Assembly (NCBI GenBank): GCA_902778175.1
Contig: CACYWT010000021.1
Coordinates: forward strand, 1-64,000
DNA from: an uncultured Ruminococcus sp.
Lineage (GTDB): Bacteria > Bacillota > Clostridia > Oscillospirales > Acutalibacteraceae
Direction of reading: 5' to 3'
Length of the DNA stretch: 64,000 nt
A model generated the notes under the pieces. The model had not been told where the DNA came from. It saw nothing but the letters and a program-made list of their open reading frames with translations, and ran no database searches. Positions 695 to 45,150 of this stretch are shown in pieces. Position numbers and translations under genes: made by a program. The stretch's first letter is position 1. Each line of letters starts with the position of its first letter.

Positions 695-1908
695 TGGATA
701 TATCCGTACTTTACTCTTCCACAGTTGATCTGACAGCCCTTCTGCTCGGCGTTATGGGAATGCTGATACCCCTGATCGTGCGGGATACAGATAAATGGTG
801 GCGTAATTATTGTGTTTTTTTCTTTATAGCTATGACCCTTAAATCAGCAAGCAGCCTTATAAGCCTGATTTCCGTTATATATTGGAATAACGTCCCGCTT
901 GAGACGGCACTGAACTTTATAAACGCTTTGTGTTCATCGGCTATCATCCCGATGCTGACGCTTTATATACTTCACTGCTGTTCTGAAGATCTCTGGAAGT
1001 CACACCTGTGGAGAGTGATCCTGATTCTTTGGGGTATTGGCTTCGCAGCGCTAATCGCCGATCTGCTGACAAATATGTTCTTCTATATTCCATCATCAGA
1101 CGGAACCGTGAAGCCGCGCTATTTTGTACTTGTTTATTTATCAGTCACAGTTACAGGTCTTATAATAAATGTAATTGCTCTTATAAGAAGAAGAAAAAAA
1201 CTTTCAAGGATGCAGATCATTGTCATATTGTGCTATTTGCTGGCTCCTGTTTCCCTTATGATACTTGCAGTTGAGCTGATGCTCTTTGCAGATCAGGGAA
1301 AGCGTTATCTTGACCAAAAGGCGGAGCTTGCAAAACAAAAGGCAAGCAATGCCGTATTGCAGATGCGGCCGCATTTCATATACAACACAATGACGAGCAT
1401 TTACTATCTGATAGAGCAGGACGCAGATAAGGCGCAGCAGGTCACTCTTAACTTTACCGATTATTTAAGGAGGAACTTTACGGCTATCGCCAAGGAAGGA
1501 ACTGTTCCCTTTTCTGCGGAGTTAGAGCATACAAAGGCATATTTGTCAGTGGAGCAAATGCGCTTTGATGACAAGCTGCTTATAGAGCTTGATACGCCTT
1601 ACACCGATTTCAGGCTGCCCCCTCTGACCATTCAGCCGATAGTTGAGAACGCTGTTAAGCACGGCATAGACCCTGATCTTGATCCGCTGCATATTGCCGT
1701 TCATACTAAAAAGCTGAAGAACGGCACAGAGATCATTGTTGAGGATACCGGTCCGGGCTTCGGTGTGATAGACAGCGGACATCCGCATACTGCACTTTCC
1801 AATATTCAGGAAAGACTTGAAATGATGTGCAGGGGAACACTGACCATCTCTGAACGGGACGGCGGCGGCACCGTTGTGAGGCTGTATATTCCCGACAAAA
1901 AGCAATGA
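694..1908 (+). CDS. LytS/YesM-type sensor histidine kinase
   Basis: A 404-residue membrane kinase. Several hydrophobic segments fill residues about 1-205. A short linker (KAELAKQKASNAVL) leads into a His_kinase (PF06580-type) domain with phosphoacceptor His about 227 in MRPHFIYNTM. The ATPase N-box (QPIVENAVKHG) is near 320-330 and the G-box (DTGPGFG) near 352. It should autophosphorylate and pass the phosphate to the XRE-receiver protein encoded immediately upstream, whose stop overlaps this start by one base. No periplasmic sensor domain is obvious, so the stimulus is probably sensed within or at the membrane. Family and pairing are clear; the signal is unknown. Confidence 0.88.
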   Translation: MDISVLYSSTVDLTALLLGVMGMLIPLIVRDTDKWWRNYCVFFFIAMTLKSASSLISLISVIYWNNVPLETALNFINALCSSAIIPMLTLYILHCCSEDLWKSHLWRVILILWGIGFAALIADLLTNMFFYIPSSDGTVKPRYFVLVYLSVTVTGLIINVIALIRRRKKLSRMQIIVILCYLLAPVSLMILAVELMLFADQGKRYLDQKAELAKQKASNAVLQMRPHFIYNTMTSIYYLIEQDADKAQQVTLNFTDYLRRNFTAIAKEGTVPFSAELEHTKAYLSVEQMRFDDKLLIELDTPYTDFRLPPLTIQPIVENAVKHGIDPDLDPLHIAVHTKKLKNGTEIIVEDTGPGFGVIDSGHPHTALSNIQERLEMMCRGTLTISERDGGGTVVRLYIPDKKQ

Positions 1909-10806: not shown

Positions 10807-11085
10807 ATGAGTGTTGTAATAGTCGGCGGAAATGAATGTATGGTAAGAGAATACACACAGCTTTGTGAAAAGTATAAATGCAAGGCGAAGATATATCCCA
10901 AGATGTGCAGGGGTCTGCAGAATATAGGCAGTCCCGACCTTATGGTGCTTTTTACAAATACCATGTCGCACAAGATGATAAAATGTGCAATGGACGGGAT
11001 AAAGAACATGAATATTCCGGTAGAAAGATCACATAATAGCTCTAAGGCGGCTCTCAGGAACATACTTGACAAATACGCCGGATAA
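10807..11085 (+). CDS. DUF2325 family protein
   Basis: A 92-residue cytoplasmic protein of the DUF2325 family. It begins SVVIVGGNECMVREYTQLC, the typical Rossmann-like first strand and loop, and later has LFTNTMSHKMIKCA and VERSHNSSKAAL. The start is 10807, because GGAGG at 10797-10801 is positioned for it and not for the upstream in-frame ATG at 10795. DUF2325 genes in Clostridia often accompany iron-uptake and DUF3793 genes. Here it leads an operon with DUF3793 and flavodoxin under a TTAG...CTAA operator, suggesting a role in low-iron physiology. The biochemical function is unknown. Confidence 0.8.
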   Translation: MSVVIVGGNECMVREYTQLCEKYKCKAKIYPKMCRGLQNIGSPDLMVLFTNTMSHKMIKCAMDGIKNMNIPVERSHNSSKAALRNILDKYAG

Positions 11086-30691: not shown

Positions 30692-30831
30692 TATAACCGC
30701 AAAGTATGTCCCCCGAGTCTCGCCTGCCGGCTCGGTCGGTGCTTCTGCTTCGCAGAGGTGTCCACTGGACACCCGCACCCTCTAAGGCAAGCCTACGGCT
30801 TGCCTTTGCTTGTTGAAAGCAAAGCTTTTAA
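30692..30831 (+). mobile_element. TATAACC...CTTTTAA hairpin repeat, copy E
   Basis: A 140-bp copy of the repeat family found four times at 43.9-45.2 kb. The left end TATAACCGCAAAGTATGTCC and right end (GGCAAGCC-TAC-GGCTTGCC hairpin, CTTTGCTT-GTTGA-AAGCAAAG hairpin, then CTTTTAA) match the other copies. The middle is different and holds another hairpin (GTGTCC-ACT-GGACAC). It lies in the intergenic region upstream of the zinc-ribbon gene. Confidence 0.8.
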
Positions 30832-43716: not shown

Positions 43717-43978
43717 ATTGTAAGAAATTTTGTCGGAGGGTCATTATGAGAAGATATGGACGAAGAAAAAAACGACAATGAGCGAAACTGCGGCAAAATA
43801 TCCTGTGCTGTTTGCTGTAATAGGCATTGCGTTTTTGGTCTTTGCAATATTTCTTTCTGTTGGCATTTTTGTAAGGTCAAACGAGATAAACCGCGCTGTT
43901 GATAAAAATGTTACCGTGAACGGTACTGTCACAAGGGTCTGGACTACCAAATCAAGACGCAAGATCAGCAAACATAAC

Positions 43979-44091
43979 TATAACCGCAAAGTATGTCCCC
44001 CGCCTCTAAGGCGGCGGGTGCCATATATCCGTTCAGTGGGAGTAAAAATCTCCCACTGAACGACAGCAAGCCTACGGAGCAAAGCTTTTAA
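43979..44091 (+). mobile_element. Hairpin repeat, copy A (inside the DUF3592-like gene)
   Basis: A 113-bp copy from TATAACC to CTTTTAA. It contains the CCGCC-TCTAA-GGCGG hairpin and a perfect 13-bp stem (CGTTCAGTGGGAG and its complement around TAAAAAT). It lacks about 21 bp of the right-hand hairpins present in B and C. Confidence 0.85.
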
Positions 44092-44404
44092 AACAGTAAT
44101 TACTTATCATGCCTCTGTCGGATATGAATACAATGGAAGGAAATATACCAATTCTGATCTTTCATTCGGTTCAAAAACTGTCCTCACCGGCGAAATTGTC
44201 AGGTTATATATTGATCCGGACAATCCTTCTGTTTCATACCGCGGAAGATCGGATTTCCTGAGCCTGCCGAATATTCTGACCTGCATGATACCTCTGTTTA
44301 TGGGTATGTCATTCATAATATCTCTCTTTATCGGACTAAAGAAAAGGAAAAAAATGCAGATGATGCCGACATTTACAGGCAACGGTACTCTTCCCGGTCA
44401 GACT

Positions 44405-44558
44405 TATAACCGCAAAGTATGTCCCCCGCCTCTAAGGCGGCGGGTGCCATATATCCGTTCAGTGGGAGTAAAAATCTCCCACTGAACGACAGCAAGCCTA
44501 CCACTGAACGACAGCAAGCCTACGGCTTGCCTTTGCTTGTTGAAAGCAAAGCTTTTAA
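44405..44558 (+). mobile_element. Hairpin repeat, copy B (inside the DUF3592-like gene)
   Basis: A 154-bp copy with both ends intact and all hairpins. It carries an internal 22-bp tandem duplication (CCACTGAACGACAGCAAGCC plus TA) that the other copies lack. Confidence 0.85.
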
Positions 44559-44685
44559 CAACAATTCCGGTTTCGGCGGAAACTATATCAATAATCCTAA
44601 TGCTGATTATCAAAACAACAGCTATAACAATAACAACTATAATAATACAAACAACTACAACAATAGCTACAATAATTCAAACAGT

Positions 44686-44816
44686 TATAACCGCAAAGTA
44701 TGTCCCCCGCCTCTAAGGCGGCGGGTGCCATATATCCGTTCAGTGGGAGTAAAAATCTCCCACTGAACGACAGCAAGCCTCGGCTTGCCTTTGCTTGTTG
44801 AAAGCAAAGCTTTTAA
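44686..44816 (+). mobile_element. Hairpin repeat, copy C (inside the DUF3592-like gene)
   Basis: A 131-bp copy, the cleanest of the set apart from a one-base deletion (CCTCGG for CCTACGG). It interrupts the Asn/Tyr-rich tail, with host codons TAT AAC before and AAT AAT AAC after. Confidence 0.85.
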
Positions 44817-45029
44817 TAATAACAACTACAATACAAACAGCTATAATAATAACGGCTATAACAACACTAACGGATATAATTACGGCAATTCATATAATAA
44901 TCTTAATACTCCATATGGAAACAGCAGTATACCTCCGGCATCGGGTTCCGGAACATCAGATGACAGTTGGGATTTTCTTAACCACTGACCGTTTAATGTG
45001 TGTATGCTGTGAGAAATTGCTACTAAATA

Positions 45030-45150
45030 TATAACCGCAAAGTATGTCCCCCGCCTCTAAGGCGGCGGGTGCCATATATCCGTTCAGTGGGAGTAAAAAT
45101 CTCCCACTGAACGATAGCAAGCCTACGGTTGTTGAAAGCAAAGCTTTTAA
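45030..45150 (+). mobile_element. Hairpin repeat, copy D (intergenic)
   Basis: A 121-bp copy between the broken gene and the next paralogue, 19 bp upstream of the start at 45170. It has the same ends and the 13-bp stem, and a short deletion in the right hairpins. Confidence 0.85.

Follow-up and report, generated by a model that had tools for sequence, protein, structure and literature searches.

A short gene-free repeat of Clostridia with the insertion target TATAA, probably a non-autonomous element of the IS200/IS605 type

In the 64,000-nucleotide stretch of Ruminococcus DNA analysed here (the window), a hairpin-rich repeat lies three times within one open reading frame (copies A, B and C) and once just 3′ of it (copy D), which raises the questions of what this repeat is and why a single gene was hit three times. 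All four copies are on the plus strand and share the left end TATAACCGCAAAG (with the longer common sequence CCGCAAAGTATGTCCCCCGCCTCTAAGGCGGCGGGTGCCATATATCCGTTCAGTGGGAGTAAAAATCTCCCACTGAACG), the right end GCAAAGCTTTTAA, which is preceded by TTGTTGAAA in copies B–D, and a central 13-bp stem CGTTCAGTGGGAG/CTCCCACTGAACG. This confirms part of the initial annotation of the locus, and according to sequence shuffles, 0 matches between copies are expected in the window by chance. A fifth copy, which belongs to a longer group (G2), was found on the plus strand at 30697–30831 after the TATAA at 30692–30696. Its left hairpin is enlarged by about 60 nt of additional sequence, and a break lies 97 nt from its left end.

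Copy C (44691–44816, 126 nt, break at 95) is the nearest to a full unit of 127 nt and shows the organization of the repeat best. The 5′ segment GCAAAG (44693–44698) forms the left strand of a predicted closing stem, P1. It is followed by the left hairpin hp1 (CCCCCGCCTCTAAGGCGGCGGG; 44704–44725), which is kept across genera, and by the middle hairpin hp2 with the 13-bp stem (44737–44769), both of which were recognized in the sequence and in the DNA fold. The letters of the hp2 stem change between subfamilies while the pairing is maintained. The right strand of P1, CTTTGC (44789–44794), has an alternative partner GCAAAG beside the right end, and the right end itself (44797–44816) consists of a putative guide GTTGA, the short hairpin AAGC-AAA-GCTT and the terminal TTAA. 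Hairpins are thus subterminal at both sides, and the element has no terminal inverted repeats: no inverted repeats of at least 20 nt were detected between the element ends, which are also unlike by eye.

As assembled, the other copies differ from copy C in length. Copy A (43984–44091, plus strand) follows the target TATAA at 43979–43983 and has 108 nt with a break about 99 nt from the left (located by eye); its real length is probably about 127 nt. Copy B (44410–44558, 149 nt) contains an apparent 22-bp duplication with a break 97 nt from the left, probably an artefact, and copy D (45035–45150, 116 nt), situated between the host gene and its paralogue, has the break at 99. The range of 113–154 bp (target included) reported initially is probably not real. 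The source genome is a draft of 2.69 Mb in 118 contigs, in which reference units of 127 nt and, for a second local group, 190 nt are each represented by two intact copies. As many as 34 of the 37 copies of non-reference length break 93–101 nt from one end, and approximately 25 contigs end 92–99 nt inside the repeat. Since the breakpoints sit at the distance where contigs also stop, the length differences among A–D are most likely assembly artefacts. Judging from their positions, the breaks are probably what faulty trimming of overlaps would produce with a k-mer near 97. Internal deletions in single copies by template switching or slippage, first suggested by the copy alignment, were rejected because the breakpoints lie at this k-mer distance. 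The ends of the copies, which lie no further than about 97 nt from unique flank, can be trusted, and the middle parts of A, B and D cannot. Repeats of this kind can thus show up in short-read assemblies with spurious insertions, deletions and duplications.

Two other kinds of unusual copies were observed. Very short forms of about 57 nt (L094, L097, L099, L108, L082, L090, L095 and L098) keep both ends and have several different internal junctions; they are probably genuine deletions, since they are shorter than the assembly k-mer. The copy at 1337–1595 (minus strand) of L029 carries a foreign segment of about 130–155 nt inside hp1, which is either an insertion or a misassembly.

The genome search for further copies that had been suggested for this locus was productive: in the source genome, exact matches numbered 49 for the left end and 69 for the right end, which after merging in the stretches read gave about 87 element sites with unrelated flanks. 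In all 41 complete copies (41/41), ATAACCGC marks the left side and CTTTTAA the right side. The preceding base is mostly T; the left side can be written as NATAACCGC, most often TATAACCGC, and AAC is preceded by TAT in the majority of complete copies. The exact boundary was provided by four natural nested cases, at four loci in different genomes, in which the inserted element directly follows TATAA and directly precedes the first C of a resident element, with no base lost or gained beyond the inserted element. In the source genome (L008), CCGC..CTTTTAA is followed by the resident CAGACGTCTATG.., and in L223, L283 and L304 the inserted element is followed by the residents CTAAATTAAG.., CGAAAATAAG.. 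and CCTACGCGCAG.., respectively. Intact residents of these types at other sites begin immediately 3′ of TATAA. The element therefore inserts 3′ of TATAA, its first base is C and its end is TT(N)AA; for the copies in the window this means a unit starting with C after TATAA and ending with TTTTAA. The edges proposed initially, after TATAAC and after CTTTT, keep the frame in copies A–C and are off from the true boundary by CAA. The proposed insertion 3′ of a short fixed target was borne out, together with the subterminal hairpins and the lack of terminal inverted repeats. The absence of target duplication holds in so far as none is detectable: there is no TAA duplication at the nested junctions, and it is excluded by the right ends TTGAA in L223 and L304, whereas a 2-bp AA duplication would look the same as none. 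A classical DDE-type MITE was rejected, as terminal inverted repeats are missing and no multi-bp target duplication is seen at the nested junctions. A second subfamily (CAGACGTC..CTTGTTTAA) also occurs in the source genome, in the right flanks of L008 and L004, as a resident target or as a 5′-truncated piece.

The host gene (43778–44988, plus strand) encodes a DUF3592-like membrane protein with an Asn/Tyr-rich tail. The next two genes, both of which match Pfam PF12158 (DUF3592), are its paralogues. When A, B and C are removed as CCGC..CTTTTAA, one clean frame of 275 aa without an internal stop is restored, and its alignment with these downstream paralogues is at 33%, in line with the earlier observation that excision rejoins host codons. 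As it stands, the gene contains an in-frame TGA at 44057–44059, inside copy A, at which it is probably inactivated. The emptied gene contains nine sense-strand TATAA motifs in 828 nt (10.9 per kb), compared with 2.5 and 2.0 per kb on the two strands of the window, because the Asn/Tyr-rich tail is coded by TAT AAY (TAT AAC, TAT AAT). The triple hit is thus explained by the target density and needs no special relation of the element to this gene.

Relatives of the repeat are spread through Clostridia of the gut and the rumen. Using the strict left-end pattern, we found at least 115 stretches in Clostridia genomes, mostly metagenome-assembled, labelled Ruminococcus, Oscillospiraceae, Acetivibrio, Ruminiclostridium, Syntrophomonas, Selenomonas and others. 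Within the family of the window the spread is patchy, the strict motif being present in 6 of 398 genomes. Related elements occur in three IMG/VR phage contigs, just after genes (L198 at 3238; L199 at 3107, minus strand; L200 at 2553 and at 10915, minus strand), and the stop codon of the preceding gene falls within the target TATAA in L198 and L199. A blastn search against phage and plasmid collections gave no match, and the search for empty phage sites yielded one near-identical phage, which was also occupied. All elements seen are short and without a gene, and neither TnpA nor TnpB was found in or beside the copies scanned. The elements share a common plan, consisting of TATAA followed by C, a 5′ segment, hp1 (ATGTCCCCCGCC..), hp2 (CAGTGGGGG..CCCCCACTG, with a changing stem), often a third hairpin hp3, the segment P1′, a guide-like GTTGAA or GTTAAA, a hairpin, and TTATTGAA or TTTAA as the terminus. 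The ends can be written as TATAA–C..ATGTCCCCCGCC for the left end and GTTGAATGAC–hairpin–TTATTGAA for the right end. No published account of the element sequence or of IS605 MITEs in Ruminococcus was found in a literature search. As far as found, this widespread, non-coding mobile repeat of Clostridia, whose target is fixed, whose ends are exact and which is also carried by phages, is undescribed.

Both ends appear to be joined by the stem P1, in which the 5′ segment pairs with P1′ located 0–2 nt before the guide-like motif. In 35 distinct subfamily representatives, the best P1 stem score was 5.4 on average versus 3.8 for swapped partners, and a stem of at least 5 bp was present in 69% versus 19%. 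The observed mean was reached in 0 of 20,000 permutations, a value which overstates independence, as representatives within a genus are related. The stems differ completely between subfamilies (ACGACTTA/TAAGTCGT, AGACGTCG/CGACGTCT, GTCGCCG/CGGCGAC and TGCAAAG/CTTTGCA); by sequence comparison, the predicted closing stem covaries. P1′ is also complementary to the segment beside the right end (score 5.6 versus 4.1) and can therefore pair with either end. One subgroup (L231, L208 and L223) is without P1 and has an extended hp1 instead.

Hairpins are the structures recognized by IS200/IS605 transposases, and the cleavage motif, at the right side located at the very end, is chosen by a guide situated 5′ of the hairpin foot (PMC6006769; PMC7290912). 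The right end of most subfamilies, with a guide-like GTT[G/A/T]A, a hairpin and TT(N)AA, matches this layout, the guide function being putative. At the left end, no conserved guide was found 5′ of the hairpin: the segment between TATAA and hp1 varies freely across subfamilies while TATAA is constant. We consider it probable (roughly 0.7) that the element is a non-autonomous, single-strand (IS200/IS605-like) mobile DNA of about 127 nt, without a gene, which inserts 3′ of TATAA and is moved in trans. Such an origin, suggested initially, is still the best single guess. Although it behaves like a non-autonomous member of IS200/IS605, the assignment is only a probable one, since the searches for a left guide and for a parent element found neither. 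In the proposed mechanism, the single-stranded element would fold into hairpins closed by P1, which would bring the left TATAA and the right-end TT(N)AA close to a single guide-like segment, GTTGAA. Acting in trans, a single-strand transposase of the Y1 (HUH) type would cut after TATAA and after TT(N)AA, and the element would be joined as a single-stranded circle and then inserted after another TATAA. With P1 formed, TATAA would face GTTGAA, and four of five pairs, including one G-T, are possible between the two. That one guide may serve both ends is weakly supported by thermodynamic folding, which gave a mean of 0.5 expected pairs between TATAA and the guide-like segment.

All six family genomes with the strict left-end motif also have a Y1_Tnp match, compared with 196 of 398 overall (about 1.4% by chance), the matches in G013, G091 and G381 being weak or fragmentary. 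Among 13 other element-bearing genomes, which are drafts of unstated completeness, five have no such match. The direction of insertion relative to replication, derived from GC skew in 41 stretches of draft contigs (about 0.8 Mb), was balanced (30 co-oriented and 31 anti-oriented), which is also the case for an IS605 set in Halanaerobium (PMC7290912). Relative to genes, a local bias of 54:32 was seen, but it was 29:32 on larger stretches.

The same data bear on the alternative that an unrecognized enzyme or an RNA route moves the repeat, in which case the fold would serve that machinery as RNA or DNA substrate and the resemblance to IS200/IS605 ends would be convergent. The five genomes without a Y1_Tnp match and the lack of strand bias speak for it, as does the failure to find a transposase or an autonomous element with matching ends in any genome searched, and a closing stem joining the ends is absent from the described IS608 layout (PMC6006769). 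The right-end layout and the target behaviour fit IS200/IS605, and the six bearing genomes of the family all hold at least a Y1 fragment; we therefore regard this alternative as unlikely. Another view, which we put forward only tentatively, is that the repeat represents a mobile family without genes that has an architecture of its own, in which both ends are folded together by a covarying stem, the 3′ strand of which can pair with either end, one guide serves both cuts, there is no autonomous parent, and the mover is a single-strand enzyme of the host or phage or another machine. The repeat raises two questions: what moves an element of high copy number for which no autonomous parent is known, and how a single guide together with a closing stem could take the place of the two separate ends of IS608.

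The mostly intergenic location and the phage copies that follow gene ends, twice with the stop codon overlapping TATAA, would also suit a structured repeat that is not mobile but regulatory or REP-like, which recombination or phages have spread and which is kept as a terminator or 3′ UTR element. The exact junctions and the nesting at TATAA, together with the unrelated flanks at about 87 sites and the hits inside genes, show insertion as a unit, and such a repeat is quite improbable.

The source genome contains a single IS605 element, with intact tnpA and tnpB, on contig C71 (L033, 3298–5045); an element near-identical to it is present in a congener (L140). As its TnpA is the only Y1 transposase found in this genome, the repeat might be a derivative of this element moved by it. 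The left end of the C71 element, TTTAA followed by CCTAAATGGGCAAGAAGTCCCCCGCC, resembles the repeat in a similar left hairpin (GTCCCCCGCCTCAAAGGCGGTGGG), in AA before the element and in the first base C. In contrast to the repeat, it carries tnpA and tnpB, its target is TTTAA, and its left segment and right end (..GTATGTCACTG) are different; none of the copies seen had one end of each kind, and this derivation is very improbable. The search for a TnpA/TnpB element with the same ends, which had been recommended, yielded none in the genomes covered. A TnpB/omega-RNA role is not supported, since the TnpB element of the source genome has a different right end.

That the repeat is an intervening sequence removed from RNA (a small intron or ribosome bypassing), so that the gene still makes protein, as was also considered initially, is hardly credible in spite of the conserved fold and the clean frame with no other lesion after removal of the three copies, because any precise insertion leaves a clean frame on removal, the three copies are nearly identical and the hits can thus be recent, no Rfam intron or other family and no group I or II match was obtained at about 127 nt, and the element is strongly depleted from ORFs (9 of 43 element sites versus 2210 of 3089 TATAA sites, 71%, in 41 stretches of the source genome covering about 0.8 Mb; Fisher p ~1e-11), where insertions should be tolerated if it vanished from RNA. 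The drum RNA recognized by Rfam in L304 is a locus separate from the element.

The repeat can be compared with several known systems. The free-standing IS605 stem loops of Borrelia plasmids (PMC2775950) are also IS605-type stem loops without a transposase near gene 3′ ends; they are single ends from a known IS605, whereas the repeat is a complete, two-ended element with no known parent. The REP/REPIN sequences associated with TnpA_REP (PMC3116915; PMC6006769) likewise consist of intergenic hairpin DNA in high copy number, whose movement in trans is ascribed to a Y1 enzyme. REPs have 21–65 nt with a 5′ GT[AG]G-like foot and often form inverted pairs, whereas the repeat has 100–200 nt, fixed ends and the target TATAA. 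Membership in REP/REPIN was rejected, as size and ends differ and no tnpA lies beside the copies scanned. In Acetivibrio sp. MSJd-27, we observed five repeated pieces (L376, L381, L383, L385 and L386) that code only for the first ~20 residues of a Y1 transposase. Those read (L376, L381 and L385) start with the hairpin AACCACCAGC..GCTGGTGGTT or a close variant. The pieces may belong to a further family of short forms derived from an IS200-type element, or may be copies of such an element at contig ends. PATEs (palindrome-associated transposable elements), the ends-only derivatives of IS200/IS605 (PMC7290912), are similarly short and without genes. Like the repeat, they have hairpins close to each end, insert 3′ of a penta-nucleotide that is fixed, leave no target duplication that can be detected and are presumed to be mobilized in trans. 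In contrast to PATEs, the repeat described here comes without a same-ended parent found and without a separate left guide, its ends are joined by a covarying closing stem, and it forms a whole family extending over Clostridia and phages.
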